Of a stretch of 64,000 nt of DNA, positions 7,288 to 46,200 are shown one piece after another. The notes below the pieces were generated by a model, which saw only the letters and a list, made by a program, of their open reading frames with translations, ran no database searches and was not told where the DNA came from. This DNA comes from Robiginitomaculum antarcticum DSM 21748 (GTDB taxonomy: Bacteria > Pseudomonadota > Alphaproteobacteria > Caulobacterales > Maricaulaceae): positions 620,001 through 684,000 of the forward strand of contig NZ_KB823011.1 of the NCBI RefSeq assembly GCF_000365025.1, read 5' to 3'. A program made the position numbers and the translations under genes. Each line of letters begins with the position of its first letter. Positions within the stretch are counted from its first letter, which is position 1.

Positions 7288-8289
7288 TTAAGTCTCCTTT
7301 ACGAGGGTTAGGGTTGGGGGTGATTTGGGTTTAAGGGGCACGAGCTCGTAGCCATCCCCTGATAATTTTGTCAGCATGGCAACGGTCTCGACGCGGCGTT
7401 TGGCTCCTCGTCCTGCGATGAATACGACGATATCAATAGCTTCCGCGATCAACGCCTTTGGCGCGTTGGTTGCCGCTTCCAAGGTTAGCTGCTCTATTCT
7501 GAGCAGCCCGGCCTCAGCGGAATTAGCGTGGACTGTGGCTATCCCGCCGGGATGGCCTGTGTTCCAAACCTTGAGCATGTCGAGGGCTTCTGGGCCGCGG
7601 ACCTCGCCGACAATCACGCGGTCTGGCCTAAGACGGAGCGTTGACCGCACAAGGCGTGCCAGCGTGACATTGAGCCCGTGGGTTCTAAGCGCTACAACAT
7701 CGTCAGCCTCGCATTGCAGCTCGCGCGTATCTTCCAAGATAACGACGCGGTCATTGGTCTGCGCCACTTCAAAGAGCAGCGCATTGGCGAGCGTTGTTTT
7801 ACCGCTGGACGTTCCGCCCACAATTAAGATGTTTTTACGGTCAATCACCGCTTCGCCCAGCGCGACCGATTGATCCGGCGTCATTGTCCCTGCCTCGACA
7901 TAGTCCCCGAGCGTAAACACGGCGACGGCCTTTTTACGGATAGCGAAACTCGGCGCGGCAACGACGGGCGGCAGAATGCCCTCAAAGCGTTCCCCGCCGC
8001 CGCCCTCGTGGCTTGGAAGCTCCGCGCTCACAATTGGATTTGAGGGCGTCACGTCCTGATTAATGTGACTGCCAACAAGCCTGACAATACGTTCAGCTGC
8101 TTGCGGCGTGACGGCGGTTTCTGACTTGGTGCAGCCCTGCCCGAGACGGTCAAACCAAAGCGCTCCGTCAGGGTTGACCATAATCTCGATGATGTCTGGA
8201 TCGTCCAAAGCAGCGGTCATTATTGGCCCCATGGCGGAGCGTAGCATGTCGAGCGTGCGGGCAGCGGTGACGGGGTTATTCGGCGGCAT
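7288..8289 (-). CDS. trbB: TrbB/VirB11 secretion ATPase
   Basis: A hexameric traffic ATPase of the VirB11 family that switches the machine between pilus building and DNA transfer. The start at 8289 (MPPNNPVTAART, 333 residues) is preferred over the longer frame because GGAGG stands seven bases before it. Walker A GGTSSGKT is at residues 158-165; the Asp box (VVILEDTREL) and Walker B (RVIVGEVRGPEAL) follow. His box GGIATVHANSA is present. The start overlaps the end of the CopG-like gene by 14 bases. Confidence 0.95.
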   Translation of the reverse strand: MPPNNPVTAARTLDMLRSAMGPIMTAALDDPDIIEIMVNPDGALWFDRLGQGCTKSETAVTPQAAERIVRLVGSHINQDVTPSNPIVSAELPSHEGGGGERFEGILPPVVAAPSFAIRKKAVAVFTLGDYVEAGTMTPDQSVALGEAVIDRKNILIVGGTSSGKTTLANALLFEVAQTNDRVVILEDTRELQCEADDVVALRTHGLNVTLARLVRSTLRLRPDRVIVGEVRGPEALDMLKVWNTGHPGGIATVHANSAEAGLLRIEQLTLEAATNAPKALIAEAIDIVVFIAGRGAKRRVETVAMLTKLSGDGYELVPLKPKSPPTLTLVKET

Positions 8290-8788
8290 CGACAACCTCC
8301 GCCCCGTCATTGACGGCAATAGTCTGGTGTTTCTTCATCCGCGAAATTTCTTCGCGGGTGAAAAAATCATTGTCCGTCGTCAGCACGTCTTTGAGAGCGT
8401 TTTTAAATGTATATCCCCCGCCCTTCATTTGATCGGCAAGACGGTCGACAAAGACATTGAAATGCTGCGTCCCCTCAGACGCTCTTGATCCCCGGTCGGC
8501 GTCGTTCACGCGGGGCATAACGGTTAGAAAATAGCGCATGAAAAGCGTGAACCCTTCCGTGAGCACGCGTAGGTCCTGGGAATGGCGCAAATCATGCCGG
8601 GTCATGAGATCGAGGCGGCGCAGAAACGCCTCATCGCGCACATCATCCTCATTGCTGCGAAAATAATGCGTCAGAGCTTTATCGACTATTTGCGCCTGAG
8701 AATGCCGGCTCTGCCGCGTGAGCAATGTGAGGCGGTTATGGTTATACGGCGAGATACGGGCGCGAATACGGGGTTTGACACTGGGCAT
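8276..8788 (-). CDS. CopG-like ribbon-helix-helix family protein of the trb operon
   Basis: A 170-residue cytoplasmic protein lying between traG and trbB, where alphaproteobacterial conjugative elements usually encode a CopG-family regulator. The N-terminal 50 residues (RIRARISPYNHNRLTLLTRQ, then a helix with ALTHYF) resemble a ribbon-helix-helix DNA-binding domain; the remainder is charged and helical with no recognised motif. It could regulate the trb operon or act at the transfer origin as an auxiliary protein. Function is inferred from family and position only. Confidence 0.7.
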   Translation of the reverse strand: MPSVKPRIRARISPYNHNRLTLLTRQSRHSQAQIVDKALTHYFRSNEDDVRDEAFLRRLDLMTRHDLRHSQDLRVLTEGFTLFMRYFLTVMPRVNDADRGSRASEGTQHFNVFVDRLADQMKGGGYTFKNALKDVLTTDNDFFTREEISRMKKHQTIAVNDGAEVVDAAE

Positions 8789-10824: not shown

Positions 10825-10869
10825 AGCCTAAGTTCCTTTTGCTGTTGGAACTCAAGCTGGCTTAACCGA

Positions 10870-10898
10870 ACTATATTTGACAATGGGGTGTTTGACAG
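10870..10898 (-). promoter_or_regulatory. probable traG-trb promoter
   Basis: On the minus strand, CTGTCA (10898-10893) and TATAGT (10875-10870) are separated by exactly 17 bases and lie about 45 bases before the traG ATG. TATAGT matches five of six positions of the sigma-70 -10 box; CTGTCA matches four of six of the -35 box. TGTCAAA occurs three times here (plus-strand TTTGACA at 10876, 10891 and 10901), two of them in step with the 10-bp array that begins just upstream. Inference from sequence only. Confidence 0.5.
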
Positions 10899-10910
10899 GG
10901 TTTGACAGGC

Positions 10911-11094
10911 CAAACCGAGTGAAACCTAGCGAATACGAGTCAACACGAGTGAAACCGGTTGAACCTAGGTGAAAAAGGCCGAATGGAGGCCAATGCGAGT
11001 GAAAACGGGCCAATCCGAGTCAACGCGGGTGAAACCGAATGAATACGAGTGAAATCTAGTGAAAGCGAGTGAATACGAGTCAAACCGAGTGAAA
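10911..11094. repeat. 10-bp tandem array, 18 units, upstream of traG
   Basis: Eighteen consecutive 10-base units, plus the first four bases of a nineteenth, run without a phase change. The plus-strand consensus is about GAAACCGAGT (first base G or C; AA nearly invariant; AGT frequent). Because the period is close to one helical turn, the AA/AAA tracts face the same side of the helix, which should bend the DNA, and any bound protein would be stacked on one face. It directly abuts the probable traG promoter. The minus-strand open frame across it merely reflects the repeat. Confidence 0.9.
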
Positions 11095-11275
11095 ATAAGA
11101 TACAATTCCTAAATTGGCTGGCTTTATGATCAGAGGGGTATCCGGTAACAGGTATCCCGCCATTATCTGAAACAGGTCGGCGCGACATGATATACTCGCA
11201 AGAAATCATCCCCAAGTTCTGATACTTTGATAGAATTGATAGTGTCTTCACATTTTAAAGTGTAGTTCCTTGGCT

Positions 11276-16182: not shown

Positions 16183-18258
16183 TTATTTCGAGAATATTCG
16201 GTTTAATTCTTCTTTGGAGTAATGGAGAGCGCATATGTCATAGCCATAAGGTGATTGCACCCAAGCTTGCGTATTATGGCCCGTTCGGGCATTTATATAA
16301 CGAGAATATTGGCTGCACAGATCTTCATTAACTTTACTACTTAAAACTCCCCCTAAAAATGTAACTTGTGTTTCTAGGGGAACACAAGCTTTTATCGAAC
16401 TTCCAACATGAGTTTTGTAATCCTTCTCAGAGCAAATACCATCAGCATAACATTGAGATAACAGGCCAGAATTCAAACACGTTGAAACGCCGTGAACATC
16501 TGCCCCCTCATGAAACAAATAATTAGAATCTTTTTCGACACTAATTTTAAAAGAGTATGTTACGCCCATTTGTTTATCGGTGTTTATAAATATTGAGGGT
16601 GGATTTGCTATTCTTGGATCAAAACTTATTCCCAGTTTCTCTTGCGCTGTTTTTTTGTTGTTAATACGAAAATCTGTTTTTTCTAGCCTTGCCCTGTTGC
16701 CCTCTACATACTCTACATAATCACCAATCAAATAGTTATATAAGTCGATTGCTTTACTGCTTCTAACGGCTTTGTCCCAAGCTTCCTTATCAGACTCCAG
16801 CATTCTTTCGTAAAAAGTTTCTGAAAGCGGATTGTAATCAGACTGATATTCTCGTTTGGATTTATCCATTCGATCAATCAACGCTTGAGAATATTTATCA
16901 CTCACCATTTTTGAATATTGTTTTAGCGATAAATCTTTAAACGCATTACAAATTTCGAAGCTAGTTGAATTTTTTGTCAAAGATAATTCTTTTAAAATTG
17001 GAGATTTTTTCAAGAACATGTCAATTGCTAGATTAGTATAAGGCCCAGAAATTCCATCAATAAAATCGTCATAATACCCATATTCTGACATCTTTTTTTG
17101 TACGCAAACAACGTCATCGTAATCTTTACGAAACCTTCTATAAACTGAAGCCCTATTGGTTTTGATAACGCTTCCTTTTTCGAGAGTAATGTAGCGGGTA
17201 ACGCCGTCAATTTCGCCAGCAATTTTTACGTAATCATTTTTATCAATATTTGGTGGTAAATCCGCCATTGTGACAAATATTGAAATATTATCAGGTATTG
17301 ATGATAAAAATACCCGAGATTCATTTTCGGAAAGAATCGTGACACCATTGACTTTTCCGAACCAGCTATTTTCGGGGACGCGCCAGCCTTTGTATCTCGC
17401 ATCTGAACTGGTGGCATCGAGAACTTTTTTTGGCGACACGCTCGTTGGTAATACCTTGTCCGTTTTCGATTGGCTTTCTTTCTTTTTTTCTAGTGCTTCA
17501 CGTTCTACCGGCTTTGGGTCTGACGGATTAGATTCGACATTTTCCGCTTCAGTTGAACTATTCAGCTTCTCAATTAATTTGGGTGTATTCAGGTATAGCG
17601 CGATTAAAGCACCGGGCACAATTAAGACCCAAAAGAGTAACCGTTTTAACGACCCGGTTTTTTTGTTTTGATGTTCGGAAATTCTGTTGTGAGCCACGAC
17701 TGAGAGGGGCGTATTGTGACCATATTTTTCTAGGAAGTTTTCATATGAAGACTTATCATACTTCTTACTTTCAATTTTCTTCCACGCTTGGATTTGATTA
17801 GGTGGTCCCGCTTCTAATTCTAAATTTTCTGTCTCTGTTGGTTCATGTTCGCCCGGGCTTTCGCTGCCCACTTTTTTTTCTATTGCTTGTATGATGTCGT
17901 CTGGTAGCGAGAATTTTGGAGCATCAAAAGCCGGCTTTATGTCTAAGGTCTGTGTTTGTTTAAAACCAAGAGGAATTTCATCGATTTCGATATCATACGA
18001 TGTCGATATTAATTTCTTTAACTTTAGAGCGAGTGTCGCCTCGTCCCTGACAAAATGGCTGTCAACGGCTTTTGATGTCCATAAAACGATAACAGTCTTT
18101 GCATTCTCAATAACTGAAGTTATTTCGGATTGAAAATCATCACCAGGCAGCAGGTCTACATCCCACCATACAGAATAGCCCATATCCAATAGCGCTTTGG
18201 ATAGCGTTTCGGCTAAACGCCTATCCTCGTTTTGATATGATAAAAAAACGTCAATCAA
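16183..18258 (-). CDS. TIR domain - transmembrane - peptidoglycan-binding-like protein
   Basis: A ~691-residue multidomain protein. The N-terminal TIR domain (residues about 1-125) begins IDVFLSYQNEDRRLAETL and contains VWWDVDLLPGDDF and a candidate catalytic Glu in VRDEATLAL (residue 73). Many bacterial TIR domains cleave NAD. A single membrane segment (about 206-223) leads to a Lys/Ser-rich linker and a PG_binding_1-like unit (about 384-418, YYDDFIDGISGPYTNLAID), then a C-terminal domain with several Cys. Topology predicts TIR inside and the rest in the periplasm. TTG 18258 is preceded by GATGGGG; TTG 18285 would give 700 residues. The gene is strikingly AT-rich. Role (defence, envelope sensing) is inference. 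Confidence 0.75.
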   Translation of the reverse strand: MIDVFLSYQNEDRRLAETLSKALLDMGYSVWWDVDLLPGDDFQSEITSVIENAKTVIVLWTSKAVDSHFVRDEATLALKLKKLISTSYDIEIDEIPLGFKQTQTLDIKPAFDAPKFSLPDDIIQAIEKKVGSESPGEHEPTETENLELEAGPPNQIQAWKKIESKKYDKSSYENFLEKYGHNTPLSVVAHNRISEHQNKKTGSLKRLLFWVLIVPGALIALYLNTPKLIEKLNSSTEAENVESNPSDPKPVEREALEKKKESQSKTDKVLPTSVSPKKVLDATSSDARYKGWRVPENSWFGKVNGVTILSENESRVFLSSIPDNISIFVTMADLPPNIDKNDYVKIAGEIDGVTRYITLEKGSVIKTNRASVYRRFRKDYDDVVCVQKKMSEYGYYDDFIDGISGPYTNLAIDMFLKKSPILKELSLTKNSTSFEICNAFKDLSLKQYSKMVSDKYSQALIDRMDKSKREYQSDYNPLSETFYERMLESDKEAWDKAVRSSKAIDLYNYLIGDYVEYVEGNRARLEKTDFRINNKKTAQEKLGISFDPRIANPPSIFINTDKQMGVTYSFKISVEKDSNYLFHEGADVHGVSTCLNSGLLSQCYADGICSEKDYKTHVGSSIKACVPLETQVTFLGGVLSSKVNEDLCSQYSRYINARTGHNTQAWVQSPYGYDICALHYSKEELNRIFSK

Positions 18259-18467
18259 GAATAAAACCCCATCCCAGTGGAACAAATGTAGAATATAAAA
18301 GAGATTCGTTGTTTATTCCAGACTGCAACCTGCATTGTCCACAACTGAATATTCAGTACAGTCCATTGATTACGATGTCGTTTTCCTTTTGCTTTAAGTC
18401 AATTCTGATGTCTCCTTTGCCCCCACAGTACGCATTAGGACAAAATTTGCGATGCCCGTATGAGAGT

Positions 18468-19295
18468 TCATGATTTATCGAATCCAGCGTGATCTAGACT
18501 TCCAAAACCCTCATCAAAAACCTCAATCCAATCATCGCGCTCCAATTGCTGTGCCATTTCACGTAAGTCTCGAATGAACTCCAACCGGGCACGATAATTT
18601 TGCAAGATAAGGGTATCGGTTTCGACATTGAGTTTACGCGTTTCTGCATAGAGTTTTTCGGCTTCAGCTAGTATTTTTGTAACCTCGGCGGATATCTTCT
18701 CATTGTTTTTAGCGGGGCCCTCCAGAACGGCTTTAATGTGGTCCAGTGATTTCGTCGCAATAGTGCCGAGCTCTTCCCGTACCGTGTGCCCCTCGGACGT
18801 TGGCAGCTTCACATCAAGCAATTGCTCCATCTGCTTGTAGATTTTTTGCTGCAATGATCGCCTATGCTTAAATTTGTTCTCGCCGGAGATGACTGGATTG
18901 GCGGGGATAGTTCCGCGCCTATAATCAACGAAGGTATCAATGATGACTTTTGATAGCCGGACTGCGCTTTCGGACTTCATGCCCATCGACATCATGGCAA
19001 CTCCATGTTCCGTGTATGCCCACGGCAGAACTCTCGCCCCGCCTCTCCCAGTGTTTGAAGTCACATTTTGTGACCTCAAAACCTTTACTTCTTCATTTGT
19101 AAGCTGAAAGGCGTAATCTATGGTGAACCTATCCGCATTACGCGAGCGGTACTGATTTACGGCTTTCGTAGTCGTTTCGTAGAATTGTGCCAGGTCATTC
19201 GCCAAAATGACAGGCTTCCCTCGGACCAACACAATAACCTGTTTGATACTATCGGATTGATCCGGGCTCCCAATATTTGCCTTACTTGAACTCAT
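18468..19295 (-). CDS. ORF6N domain protein (phage-type DNA-binding)
   Basis: A 275-residue cytoplasmic protein. Residues about 18-115 form an ORF6N domain: VIVLVRGKPVILANDLAQFY, TKAVNQYRSRNADRF, QNVTSNTGRGG and PWAYTEHGVAMMS. This domain is related to the Bro-N/KilA-N DNA-binding folds of phages and large viruses. The C-terminal part is charged and coiled-coil-like (KILAEAEKLYAETRKLN). It overlaps the upstream lipoprotein gene by 14 bases and is thus the last gene of the relaxase unit. Such proteins often act as anti-repressors or regulators in mobile elements; the function here is not known. Confidence 0.8.
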   Translation of the reverse strand: MSSSKANIGSPDQSDSIKQVIVLVRGKPVILANDLAQFYETTTKAVNQYRSRNADRFTIDYAFQLTNEEVKVLRSQNVTSNTGRGGARVLPWAYTEHGVAMMSMGMKSESAVRLSKVIIDTFVDYRRGTIPANPVISGENKFKHRRSLQQKIYKQMEQLLDVKLPTSEGHTVREELGTIATKSLDHIKAVLEGPAKNNEKISAEVTKILAEAEKLYAETRKLNVETDTLILQNYRARLEFIRDLREMAQQLERDDWIEVFDEGFGSLDHAGFDKS

Positions 19296-21894: not shown

Positions 21895-22084
21895 TGACCT
21901 GTAATCCTGCTAAATCTGCGAATTTTCGCAGGTGGCCCGCCCGTAATCCCCGCTGCTATAGGGGTTCTTAAGCAACAGCCTGGGTCACCACTCAAAACGG
22001 TGGCCCCTAAAAAACGATGTGCAGACAATGGCTTAGGGCTGACAGGCCCAGCCCTTTTATCTTGCAATATCCACCAATCTAACC
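21895..22084. other. inverted-repeat-rich gap upstream of the relaxase; oriT candidate
   Basis: A 190-base gap between traF and the relaxase gene, in an otherwise overlapping operon. It contains the palindrome CTGCGAATTTTCGCAG (21916-21931), an imperfect inverted repeat GGGTCACC/GGTGGCCC (21982-22006) and a hairpin AGGGCTG/CAGCCCT (22035-22055) followed by TTTT on the plus strand. Transfer origins often sit next to the relaxase gene and carry such repeats. No nic consensus could be assigned. Confidence 0.4.
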
Positions 22085-22630: not shown

Positions 22631-23069
22631 TGTTCTGTGCCAAATATTGACTTATCTGGGGCGGGTCATCCCTGCAAATTTCCGTATGATGATACTGCCG
22701 CCAATAGCTGGCCGGGACGACGGCGAGGTCACTACCCACTCGCTTTTCCAGCTTCGTCAAACGCGCCAGCAAGCGGCGCGTGGCCTTCGTGCCGCGTGAT
22801 CGCAGCAGCAGTTCAGCGCCGGGATAGACGCCAGGCATTTCAGTCAGTCGCCCCGTTTTTTGGGTTTCACAAATATATAGATTCCAGAGAATTGTACCGT
22901 GATCGTTGCGCGTCCACCGCACCATTCCAAATGTCGCAAAAGGCCGAAAGCTGTGTATTTTAATTCCGCTTGGACGCTCAATTATTGTTTGGCCACCGCC
23001 AAACCTGAGCCGGTGATTGCAAACACCGCGAACAAAATGCTCGGTGACTATGGTGCAAGCATCAGACAT
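22623..23069 (-). CDS. DUF2840 protein
   Basis: A 148-residue cytoplasmic protein matching the DUF2840 family in its core: IKIHSFRPFATFGMVRWT, NDHGTILWNLYI and PGVYPGAELLLRSRG, followed by a Lys/Arg-rich helix. DUF2840 genes regularly stand between traF and a small HTH gene in alphaproteobacterial conjugative elements; their function is not known. It overlaps both neighbours. No Shine-Dalgarno is visible, so coupled translation from the HTH gene is likely. Confidence 0.8.
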   Translation of the reverse strand: MSDACTIVTEHFVRGVCNHRLRFGGGQTIIERPSGIKIHSFRPFATFGMVRWTRNDHGTILWNLYICETQKTGRLTEMPGVYPGAELLLRSRGTKATRRLLARLTKLEKRVGSDLAVVPASYWRQYHHTEICRDDPPQISQYLAQNNA

Positions 23070-23286
23070 TTTGGGAGGCTTTTTTACCGCGCGGCTGCGT
23101 TTCTTCTTCGCGGCGCAATGACCACTGCTTCAATTCATCCCGGTGATAGACGACTTTGCGCCCATGTTTTCTGTATTTTGGCCCCTGCCCGTTCCATCTC
23201 ATATTCTGCAGTGTGTTTTGTTTCAGATGAAGAAATTTTGCAGCCTCCTTAACATCCACAAATGGGCATTTCAAAACACGGCCCAT
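23062..23286 (-). CDS. excisionase/AlpA-like helix-turn-helix protein
   Basis: A 74-residue DNA-binding protein with a winged-helix MerR/excisionase-type motif: VDVKEAAKFLHLKQNTLQNM, RWNGQGPKYRKHGRKVVYHR, then a basic tail. Start ATG 23286 has GGAGG five bases upstream and is better than the GTG six bases earlier. It is the first gene of the DUF2840-traF-relaxase unit. By family it may be the operon regulator or a recombination directionality factor. An inverted repeat GCAGGG/CCCTGC (23315-23335) just upstream could be its operator. Confidence 0.75.
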   Translation of the reverse strand: MGRVLKCPFVDVKEAAKFLHLKQNTLQNMRWNGQGPKYRKHGRKVVYHRDELKQWSLRREEETQPRGKKASQNV

Positions 23287-23441: not shown

Positions 23442-24227
23442 TTATCTAGTCTGGTTTAAAATCTTTAAAAATTGCCCGCGTAACTGGGATTCGGCACGCA
23501 AATAATGATTGCGAACAATGGTTCGCGCATACTCAAATTTATCGGGATTTTTAATCAAGTATTTTTTCCCAAAATGGGCCTCTATGGCGTCTTTCCATGA
23601 CCCGCCAGAGCTGCGAATATCGTAAACCAGCGCCGCGCTTCGGTGCAAATCGGCCCGTTTTGGCGTGTGAATATTCGTGCGGGCGGGCAGTGATCCATCA
23701 AGAATTCCAAAGATTAGAGCGGCGGTTTTAAGCCGCTTTTCACGGCCCTTGGCATGATTAAACTCAAGCCCGATATAGACATCCTCACTTCCTAAATCCA
23801 AATCATCACAATGCAGCTGAAACCAAAACCCTGCGCCTAGAAACCGGGCATGATAAGAGCCGTCTGCGCCCTTAAAATAGGAGCGTTTGGCTGGATAATC
23901 CGACAGCTTGATGGGCCTCGCTTCAGGCCGAACGGATGCTACCTCAAGAACATGGAACCTCACCGCGGAACTAAAATGATCAGGGTGCCAAAACACATTG
24001 GCATCAACAGCGGAAAGCTCCGGGTTTGCCGGAAATAAAAGCCCGTATTTTTCAAATTCTGGGTAGAGTTTGAGCGCTGTTAATTGCACGGCGTCATCTG
24101 ATAATTGGGCGGCCAGCAAGTCTATAGGCGCTGTTTTTGCGTAAAGTTTCTTATAAGACTCCACGCGCCGCACGACCTCCCAGGAAGAGGATGGAAACGT
24201 ATTCCACGGTGAAATTTTATAAGGCAA
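23442..24227 (-). CDS. DUF2285 (FseA-like) regulator
   Basis: A 261-residue protein. The N-terminal WNTFPSSSWEVVRRVESYKKLY resembles DUF6499 and the C-terminal ~100 residues (LKTAALIFGILDGSLPAR, then SWKDAIEAHFGKKY and YARTIVRNHYLRAESQLRGQ) match DUF2285. The two halves correspond to the parts of FseA, the activator of excision in the Mesorhizobium symbiosis island. There they are joined by programmed frameshifting; here they are in one frame. Start is TTG 24227, backed by AAGGAG. It could activate the excision gene; this is inference from family. Confidence 0.75.
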   Translation of the reverse strand: MPYKISPWNTFPSSSWEVVRRVESYKKLYAKTAPIDLLAAQLSDDAVQLTALKLYPEFEKYGLLFPANPELSAVDANVFWHPDHFSSAVRFHVLEVASVRPEARPIKLSDYPAKRSYFKGADGSYHARFLGAGFWFQLHCDDLDLGSEDVYIGLEFNHAKGREKRLKTAALIFGILDGSLPARTNIHTPKRADLHRSAALVYDIRSSGGSWKDAIEAHFGKKYLIKNPDKFEYARTIVRNHYLRAESQLRGQFLKILNQTR

Positions 24228-24361: not shown

Positions 24362-24688
24362 TTAGGCGCGGGGGTTCCAGACCATCGCGAATTTCTTCTC
24401 TTTAGTGCCTTTGACCCGGCCCAGATTAGCATAGACCCTGCGGTCGCTGATATTGGGGTGTTCAAAGGTCAGGGAGATATAATCTTTCCCTGAGGTTTCA
24501 CCGACGCGGTTCCAGCCTGCGCCGACTTCGTTTAAACGCTCTCCGAAGATCCGGTAATCCGGCTCCTGGGACTTCGGCGTTTTGGACTCATTGGCGACGA
24601 TTTTGATGCGTTCATTGACGCCCATCGCTAACAGGCCTTCGAAGTTTCCGGTGTCAGTTTTTGTGATATATCCGATTGCTTTGGACAT
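24362..24688 (-). CDS. DUF736 family protein
   Basis: A 108-residue small protein of the DUF736 family: GYITKTDTGNFEGLL, DYRIFGERLNEVGAGW, DYISLTFEHPNISDRRVYAN and FAMVWNPRA. DUF736 is very common in alphaproteobacterial plasmids and ICEs; its role is unknown. It is a monocistronic gene with GGAG eight bases before the ATG and a strong terminator. A decayed second copy, including leader and terminator, lies in opposite orientation at 25003-25384. Confidence 0.88.
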   Translation of the reverse strand: MSKAIGYITKTDTGNFEGLLAMGVNERIKIVANESKTPKSQEPDYRIFGERLNEVGAGWNRVGETSGKDYISLTFEHPNISDRRVYANLGRVKGTKEKKFAMVWNPRA

Positions 24689-25002: not shown

Positions 25003-25333
25003 ATGCCCAAAGGGATTGGATGTATTACGCGGACTGACACCGGCAACTTTGACGCTTTTTTTCGCTATGGGCGGCCATGATCGCCTCAAATGCCTCTCCG
25101 GCGCGTCCGAAACTTCCTGATGTCCCAAGAGCTGGATTTCTATATCTTTAGAGGGGGTTTGAATGATGACGGCAAAGGCTGGGGCCGTGCCTGCGGCACA
25201 TCAGGGAAAGACGGTATCTCCCGAGCCTTTGAGCGCCTCAATATCTGCGGCCGCAGGGTCTATGCCCATCTGGGCCGTATCAAAGGTATAAAAGTGCCGA
25301 TATTGGCTATGGCCTTGAACCCGCTGCGCCTAA
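25003..25333 (+). pseudogene. decayed inverted copy of the DUF736 gene
   Basis: The plus strand starts MPKGIGCITRTDTGNFDAFF, clearly the DUF736 start, but meets a TGA after 25 codons. A second frame then continues the family: DFYIFRGGLNDDGKGWGRAC, TSGKDGISRAFERLNICGRR and VYAHLGRIKGIK, ending near NPL. A frameshift near 25080-25140 and loss of the NER-IKIVANESK segment inactivate it. The leader (GACAGCAAGGGGATTGG) and the terminator are also copied, so the whole unit was duplicated in inverted orientation. Confidence 0.8.
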
Positions 25334-25354
25334 GCTGTTTCTCTTACATGCCGG

Positions 25355-25384
25355 CCCGCCTGATACACAATCGGGCGGGTTTAT
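25355..25384 (+). terminator. terminator of the decayed DUF736 copy
   Basis: CCCGCCTGAT and ATCGGGCGGG-like arms (CCCGCC...GGCGGG) are followed by TTTATTT on the plus strand. The sequence corresponds to the terminator of the intact gene at 24312-24342 with a mismatch in the left arm. Confidence 0.7.
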
Positions 25385-25665
25385 TTGCGGCTATCTCTAT
25401 TGCTCTCATTCTCAAACGCGCTTAGTCAATGATCGCGCGTAGCAAAATCTGCGCGTGGGGATCGTCAACCCCTCTGAAAACCGTAGACGGCCTGCCCGGC
25501 GCGTCTTGGGACATCAATGCACATTCGGCTCTGGCCGGATGGTGCGTAATGTCCAATGGTCTTTGCCTGAAAAGGTGCGGCCTAAATACCGCGCACAGAG
25601 TCCTACGGTTCTCTGTTTTGACGACATCCGGCTTTTCGGATGCGTTTAAACGAACCGGAGGCCTT
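25385..25665. other. stretch without a convincing gene
   Basis: About 280 bases between the pseudogene terminator and the next start. An open frame runs through it in phase with the downstream gene but has no family features and no internal Shine-Dalgarno. It may contain the promoter of the downstream gene; nothing definite is seen. Confidence 0.5.
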
Positions 25666-43281: not shown

Positions 43282-46200
43282 TTAGAATGTCATCCGAACG
43301 CCAGCACGATAAATCCGGCCAGTATTCACTAACCTAAAGGTACGGTCTTTATTCCCGCCAAACTCGAACGGCTCAGCCGGCAGGTCACCATTACCCGTCG
43401 TAACATATTGACGTGTAACCGTATCCAGTAGGTTTTGCGCCTGGAAATTCAATGAGAACATTTTGTTTATCTTGAATGTACCAGAAGCGTCTAGCGTATC
43501 GAAACCCTCTGTCCACACAGCATTATTATTCCGTGTGCTGCGATCGACCAAATAGTCTGTGCGGTAATTATAGGCAAGACGCATTAGGAGACGATCATCT
43601 TCATAGAATCCCGTCAAGTTTAACGTATGCTCGGAGGTCTCAGGCAGGGGCGTTTCCGGGAAGAAGAAATTCGTAATTTCATCTTCTTCTTCATCCGCCC
43701 TACTGTCCGAATAGGTATAGTTTGCCAAGACGCCTACATGGCTCAGAGCACCTGGAAGATATTCAAAGTTATGCTGAAAAGCGACCTCTACGCCTCTCAC
43801 ATATCCGCCTGTGCCGTTTCGTGATTGACTAACGAGAACTTCATCACAAAATCCTTCGCCCACAGGCGTTTCCAAAACTTGCTCTCTGTTCGGCATACAC
43901 CCTGCTTGGTTAGCACCGCCAGAAAACGGAAGAAAAACAGAGTCAAATGATGCAACAAAATCAATTTGGCCTTCAGGTAAAACCGATCCGTCAGCGTTGA
44001 AATACTCCCCCCTCAAATCACGATAGTAAGACGCAAAAGACCCAGTTTCTGCAAAATCTTTGAGCGTCTTGTCGAAGAGTGCCACTGAGAAAAGCGAGTT
44101 GCTATCGAAATACCACTCATAAGATATGTCAAAGTTCTGTGATTTAAACGGTGTCAGACTGGGAGCGCCGATAGTGGCTCGAGATGACGTGTTAAATATA
44201 TCTTCAGTCAAACTGAAACCTGACCTCAGGTCATTTATGCGAGGACGGGCAATCGTTTGTGATGCTGCAAATCGCAACATCATATCATCACGCACCAGCC
44301 AATTCACGTTTATGCTCGGTAAGACATTCGTGTATTTGTTGGTTCCTAAAGTTTGCGTATCAGGCGAGTCATTAGGTGTATTTTGGCCTAGCTGAGCAAG
44401 CACGGCGGCCTCTGAGCCGAAAAATGCCACGTTATCGTCATTGGCAAAATTGAAGGAGTTATAGTTGAAGCCGGAGAAGCCCCGGGATTCTAGCTCGGTT
44501 TGCACAACGCGCACCCCGAGGTCTCCGAATATATCGCCACCAAAAAATTCGAAGTTACCTTGCACATAGCCACCCCAGACATCCTGCGTAATATCTAGGG
44601 ATGTTCTTAGGTTGCGTCTAATCTGGGGTACAAAACCCAAGTCATTGAGTTGTGAAATAACTAACCCACCGTCTAAACCTACGAAATTTGCGCCGGGCGG
44701 ATTAGCATCAATTCCTAGGGTTGCACCAAAATTATCAGGAACAACACCTGGAATTGCGAAATCCGCAAATGTTGAGCCGTTATCTCTTAAGATGTTTCCC
44801 GTAGCTGCAGCGTTAAAGCCAACTGACGAATCATCGTACTGTTTATTACGGCTCGACCATTTTAAACCAGCCTCAAAGCTCGTAAACGGCCCAAATTCTT
44901 GATTCCATTCCGTATCAAAATATATGGACTTTGCTTCGTCAGACCCTGTTTGTTCAGAAATGTTGGCCGTATTGTAGGAGAAAGTTGTCGGGTCATTGAT
45001 ATAGTCATTAGGAATGACAAAACTGCAAACGACAGGAGTTGTTTCGCAATCATAGCCGAGCGTAACTCCGGTATCGCGATTTCGCGCATTCCGAAACCGT
45101 GTAAATTGACGCTGCGGAGTCGTTAGATCTGTTTTAGAGTGCCCAGCTTGCAATGAGAAATCAAAATCACCAAATGTTTTCTCAACCAAGCCAGAAATTG
45201 TAAGCGTATCCTGCTCTGTCTCATGCCTCACGTCAGCATATTGCAAAACATCTTCACGGTTGTTGTTTCGTGCACCTGACGCTGTGTGGATGTTCCGGAC
45301 CAATACAAATGTATTCGGGTCAAAAACAAGATGATCCTGCAAGTCCGCGTTAGACGTATCCCGGTTACCAATATTGCTTACGGCACTAAATTCGTTCTGA
45401 CGCCGATCCGTATCACGAGACGCATAAGTCACGTCTAGCTTAACGTTCAAATCATCTGTCGGTTTGTATTGTACCGTCCCCGTGAGGGTCCGTCGATCAG
45501 TTGTGACTTGATTATTCGTTAGCCTGACCTGCTGCGGCATGTGCGCAATAATATCTCTTAGACCATTGCCATCGCCGTAATCAAACTGTGTGATGAACTC
45601 ACCTGTATCTGCATTGATTGCACCGCCACGAAACCTTGAAGCATTGTAAGGCCGATAGCCTTGCCCCACATCATACTGGTCACGACGGGCTGTTGACGTT
45701 TCGTCAACAGCAACAATTGACACACCAAGCGTGTTATCCAAGAATTTCTGAGATAGCGAAGCACTGAATTTATGGTCCTGAGCTAAATCCGACAGGCTTG
45801 GCACTGATTTATTGCCAACAAAGCTATTATATCGGCCTTGAATTTCGATTACACGGCGATTTTTTCTGGAATCCAAGGGGCTAAAACTATTTAATACAAT
45901 AGACGCGCCCAAGCTCCCTTCATCCAGAGACGCACTTGGCGTTTTTATGACTTCGATAGATGACAGTACATCTGATGAAAATTGAGACAAATCTACTGCG
46001 CTACCTTCGCCACCATTAGTTAACGGAACACCGTTCAGTGTGATATTATTCAGAGCCGCTGGCGCGCCGCGAGCGACAATGGTAGTGCCTTCGCCGCTCT
46101 CGCCGCGATTAATCGAAACACCGGTAATACGCTGAAGCGCTTCAGCGATATTTTGGTCAGTAGATTTACCGATATCCTCGGCTTTAATGGCATCTGAAAT

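Follow-up and report, generated by a model that had tools for sequence, protein, structure and literature searches.

A phased 10-bp array before traG, conserved in step and place and variable in letters, is probably an operator of Trb elements

What purpose could a long run of short repeats serve directly before the first gene of a conjugation operon? In the window, by which we mean the whole stretch of 64,000 nucleotides that was analysed, the coupling protein gene traG is preceded by eighteen tandem units, which the original prediction described as helically phased, ten bases long and free of slips. The units are genuine. Read from 11094 to 10915 on the traG-sense (minus) strand they follow one another without any slip, the array scores 110 bits at a period of 10 and 8.1 at the next best period, and 93 lag-10 matches are found across 150 positions, where the maximum of 2000 shuffles is 63. 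On the traG-sense strand the unit has two columns of T that are constant in all 18 units, then C or G (13 and 5 units), A (14/18), C (15/18), T or C, C (14/18) and G (15/18), and the other two columns vary among the units. A genome-wide search found the array once in the 2.77 Mb genome. The array and the features downstream of it are the following.

10915..11094, minus strand: Array A, 18 tandem 10-bp units, consensus NTTSACTCGN on the traG-sense strand
10890..10909, minus strand: two in-step 10-bp CCTGTCAAAC units, adjoining the promoter-like pair and overlapping its -35-like hexamer
10870..10898, minus strand: putative promoter as judged from sequence, with -35-like CTGTCA at 10893-10898, a 17-bp spacer and -10-like TATAGT at 10870-10875
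10825..10858, minus strand: traG leader hairpin of 12 pairs, its 3' arm holding the Shine-Dalgarno-like AAGGAA
8791..10824, minus strand: traG, coupling protein, first gene of the traG-trb operon
8276..8788, minus strand: RHH/CopG-like protein, second gene of the operon, candidate ligand of the array

Since traG reads leftward from 10824, the array lies directly upstream of its promoter region, which agrees with the position first claimed for it, next to the traG-trb -35 region on the upstream side; it is flanked by traG, the CopG-like gene and trb on one side and by an SNase-like gene on the other. The two TTTGACAGG words at 10891 and 10901 (plus strand), which are CCTGTCAAAC on the traG strand, are 10 bp apart and in step with the array, just as had been noticed, and the proximal CCTGTCAAAC unit covers the -35-like CTGTCA. 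Their letters differ from those of the 18 units, and they are thus a second, phase-locked motif rather than two extra copies; for the same reason one protein may not read both. The CCTGTCAAAC units resemble the array of a close relative, G112 (CCTGCCCAAACTTGCC...CCAAACACCCC).

The traG homologues compared came from the family (137 genomes), the order (398 genomes) and 80 named loci. Upstream of traG, a 10-bp periodicity was individually significant in 48 of the 115 other non-redundant Trb elements (the window excluded), and the other lags from 6 to 15 were significant in 1-8 of them. The array also keeps its position in the relatives, between about -140 and -60 relative to the traG start, and the lag-10 identity is raised only near traG, with 0.342 at -140 to -90 compared with a background near 0.26. 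The original prediction had proposed to look for such an array before traG in homologous Trb elements, and would have been refuted by its absence in close relatives with functional transfer; a 10-bp array is present and in the same place in these 48 elements, so that an argument from absence in the relatives fails. Period and place are accordingly conserved among Trb elements, while the letters of the unit are specific for each element. The unit is GCAAATCCCT in G023, TCAYAGAANN in G005b, G014b, G017b and G060, AAAAAGTACC in G055a and CCGCAAATNN in G184a and G359b; the array of G116 has TCCC-led units, and several sphingomonads carry a few GCCCATCNGC-like units. The G005b group retains its array while the DNA further upstream is unrelated, and one genome even holds two different arrays, G005a and G005b. 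The 18 units of the window are the longest array seen, 4-9 being common and 12-13 found in G184a and G359b. When the genomes of five relatives were searched with their own unit, allowing 2 mismatches, the traG array was the sole tandem and no tandem copies were found near integrases, and a similarity search of the array DNA in plasmids returned chance pieces only.

A conserved period and position combined with a changing unit sequence argue for an operator array, and against an oriT, an iteron or a gene. We hold it highly probable, at roughly 0.85, that the segment is a phased operator array for some oligomer encoded by the element, and a co-operative protein filament, which was among the possibilities first raised, is the best reading of the array. 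The oriT-like and iteron-like recognition arrays that were suggested at the same time did not hold. An iteron origin lacks its gene, there being no replication initiator gene beside the repeats, and a ParMRC centromere can be set aside likewise, as a ParM-type ATPase gene is absent from among the neighbours of the array. The conserved nic-type block that looks like an oriT is found elsewhere, not at the array.

22015..22036, minus strand: oriT-like block CTAAGCCATTGTCTGCACATCG, in the traF-rlxS gap

In this gap a CTAAGCCATTGTCTGCACATC block, preceded by AAGATAAAAGG, is nearly invariant in 12 family elements. The block at 22015-22036 is a probable oriT core, and the oriT of the Tn4371 family has been mapped by deletion to the traF-rlxS interval (PMC11448139).

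Two explanations would do without a protein reading the units. The array could act by sequence-directed curvature alone, through phased AA/TT tracts, and the strong intrinsic curvature that was foreseen is indeed predicted for the array of the window, 0.394 in a wedge model compared with 0.132 +/- 0.063 in shuffles. As the general logic of these arrays it is not supported, however, since only one of ten relatives tested in the same way, G055a, was clearly curved, G023 and G116 being borderline and the arrays of G359b and G005a straighter than their shuffles. The periodicity of purines and pyrimidines moreover equals that of A+T in strength, and we regard curvature alone as very improbable. Still less credible is that the segment is no operator at all, being either the remnant of a repeat born by slippage or a piece of coding sequence. 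A 103-aa ORF (10940-11251, minus strand) does overlap the array, and a 30-bp similarity would yield a repeat of 10 residues, but the variation is 10-periodic and not codon-periodic, the ORF is without support, and a single slippage event cannot account for dozens of elements that agree in place and period but not in letters.

If the array is an operator, which protein reads it? Besides the CopG-like protein of the operon itself, the region of rlxS and traF offers a second serious candidate.

23062..23286, minus strand: RdfS-type wHTH protein (HTH_17), 74 aa, candidate ligand
23442..24227, minus strand: FseA-like activator gene upstream of rdfS, assigned by the domains of homologues at this position

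The product of 23062-23286 matches the solved structure of RdfS, 8DGL (E=1.4e-14). The protein of the window upstream of it has no PDB or Pfam match of its own and was assigned through FseA-like homologues at that place, which carry PF20109 and PF10074. The order fseA-like, rdfS, DUF2840, traF, rlxS is kept in most of the relatives examined. Published RdfS forms superhelical head-to-tail oligomers with about one molecule per 10 bp (PMC11963761), and the step of the array matches this spacing. Mobilisation of an oriT plasmid, which requires no excision, still depends on the same protein, and further targets are expected (PMC11963761). The spacing, and a conjugation phenotype that is otherwise unexplained, make us lean slightly to RdfS as the protein that stacks on the traG array, a reading to which we give a little less than an even chance.

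The known sites of RdfS, at attP, PrdfS and PrdfG, are about 40 bp long and have no consensus motif (PMC11963761). A general 10-bp periodicity was not found at the rdfS promoters, one of these known sites. The array motif of an element was found at its own rdfS promoter with a combined p=0.014 over 14 elements, mainly due to G116 and the element of the window, and PWM scans of the element regions gave convincing second sites only in G116 (at the rdfS promoter and in the traF-rlxS gap) and weaker ones in the present element and in G108b. One PWM match in the window, at 45324, falls within a long ORF and was discarded. RdfS homologues are also carried by Tn4371-like elements of beta- and gammaproteobacteria, so that presence or absence cannot discriminate between the ligands. 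As to the neighbouring activator, published work places the action of FseA at an inverted repeat in front of rdfS (PMC10359603), and the rdfS promoters of several relatives (e.g. G055b and G019) hold an inverted repeat GTGTCGGAATC...GATTCGACAC, a possible FseA site.

Alternatively, the RHH/CopG-like protein might regulate its own operon, its dimers stacking along the 10-bp units in the manner of ParR on parC and repressing traG-trb. In 134 of 137 elements the gene next after traG is RHH-like. The array is peculiar to the promoter of its own operon, and ParR of pB171 and R1 binds direct repeats of 10 and 11 bp, respectively (PMC9426499). The RHH fold is called from a weak profile match to CopG structures (E=0.034) together with secondary structure; an AlphaFold model of the protein had a low mean pLDDT of 64.5, and a fold search with it found nothing. 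Covariation of the arrays with the proteins was examined in 60 elements by Mantel, conflict-pair and joint-regression tests of array likeness on protein identity, the p-values being from permutations in which shared ancestry partly remains and several analyses having been tried. With whole proteins the regression over these 60 elements gave p=0.020 for RdfS, p=0.050 for the CopG-like protein and p=0.049 for traG. With recognition residues, the CopG-like strand was significant on ranks (p=0.001) and RdfS was not (p=0.166), and on capped scores both were (p<0.001). Of the partial effects on array likeness, the most robust is that of the DNA-facing strand residues of the CopG-like protein, which vary strongly between elements. 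The pair G359a/G359b points the same way, with array and CopG-like protein common to both and RdfS recognition helices that differ, but other arrays that are alike go with different CopG-like proteins and track RdfS (G082a/G372, and L056 and L063 with L069), and G055b/G140 also tracks RdfS and not the CopG-like protein. One MAG, L071, keeps array and RdfS without a CopG-like gene after traG, and an array mainly upstream of the -35 box, which reaches 130-200 bp upstream in several elements, would be unusual for a simple repressor. The suggestion that the CopG-like protein binds the array therefore stands as one of two serious candidates and not as the only one, and we find repression by it possible, though below an even chance; nothing pointed to ParB, which had been named beside it. 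It is rather unlikely that the array has another reader, such as an FseA-like activator, a host nucleoid protein or a response regulator, or that RdfS and the CopG-like protein compete for it. The tests gave no separation of these two proteins, and by the capped scores both contribute. FseA, on the other hand, is reported to act at its inverted repeat before rdfS, and a host protein with a single specificity cannot explain letters that are specific for each element, including G005a and G005b in one genome.

With RdfS as the preferred ligand, we hypothesize that the traG-trb operator is a directional phased array that would take one protomer per 10-bp turn, in a filament running into the -35 region. 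An FseA-like activator would turn on rdfS, and rising RdfS would first drive excision of the element; at a higher level its protomers would occupy the whole traG array, head to tail as far as the -35 box, and would activate traG-trb. That the effect would be activation and not repression is suggested by the place of the array upstream of the -35 box and by the published rdfS phenotype; with the CopG-like protein as ligand, the same array would be the operator of a repressor. The letters of the unit would diverge as operator and protein co-evolve, with the 10-bp step fixed by the filament. We propose tentatively, and with the odds against so specific a scheme, that Trb elements have an element-specific traG operator code that is read by the excisionase RdfS, coupling excision to the transfer machine by protein level and insulating co-resident elements from each other.

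The closest known systems are the following. RdfS of ICEMlSymR7A is a homologue in the same gene order, binds with one molecule per 10 bp and has a role in conjugation beyond excision, but its sites are about 40 bp without consensus and a tandem array before traG is unreported (PMC11963761). BldC of Streptomyces, a structural relative of RdfS and likewise a small wHTH protein, forms an asymmetric head-to-tail filament on directional repeats that vary in number, with an AT-rich part and a C-G contact per unit, although its units are of 9 bp, at most four of them are described there, and it is a chromosomal regulator of development (PMC5859096). ParR, an RHH protein, occupies direct repeats of 10 or 11 bp in parC of R1 and pB171, at the promoter of its own operon and with a repeat sequence that differs between plasmids (PMC9426499), but it serves a partition centromere with ParM, whereas here the operon is one of conjugation, with traG, the RHH gene and trb. 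In the Tn4371 family, ICEKKS102Tn4677 has the same traG-trb operon and transfer module, but a half-site of the LysR-type TraR has been proposed for its traG promoter and a 10-bp array is unreported (PMC11448139). Among the papers searched, none links traG, trbB, 10-bp repeats and a promoter, and the array is absent from the accounts of Tn4371 (PMC11448139) and of RdfS (PMC11963761). Operators of phased repeats are a known kind; one with a fixed step and changing letters before traG, as in this element family, seems not to have been described. Deletion of rdfS stops conjugation even when excision is not needed, and the promoter responsible was not named (PMC11963761); the traG-trb array, in register with the measured spacing of RdfS, names a concrete target for this phenotype. 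Should the RHH protein be the ligand, the array would be the operator through which the transfer apparatus of a widespread integrative element family regulates itself. With either ligand, related elements in one genome could escape cross-talk because their operators diverge.

The expression of traG may be controlled at a further level. The leader hairpin stands directly before the start codon and pairs the Shine-Dalgarno within its 3' arm. In the family the arms are AGTCC/GGACT, GCCTC/GAGGC, CTTTCAG/CTGGAAAG, TTTCTCC/GGAGAAA and others, and 44% of 116 leaders fold with z < -2, compared with 9% of control stretches. As the pairing is kept in spite of the changed letters, the hairpin suggests a second, translational control of traG.

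As to the rest of the element, no integrase domain was found between the end of trb and the ArdA gene (G000 C1 618000-650000), and the nearest integrase-like ORF, of 495 aa at C1:707035, is about 76 kb upstream of traG and beyond the window. Between traG and rlxS lie genes for a TIR-domain protein (16183-18285, minus strand) and an ORF6N-domain protein (18468-19295, minus strand), likely cargo, the latter with a relative of 82% identity at a similar place in G050a. An ORF at 25090-25425 (plus strand) resembles the DUF736 protein at 24362-24688, in the opposite orientation, and looks by eye like a degenerate second copy.
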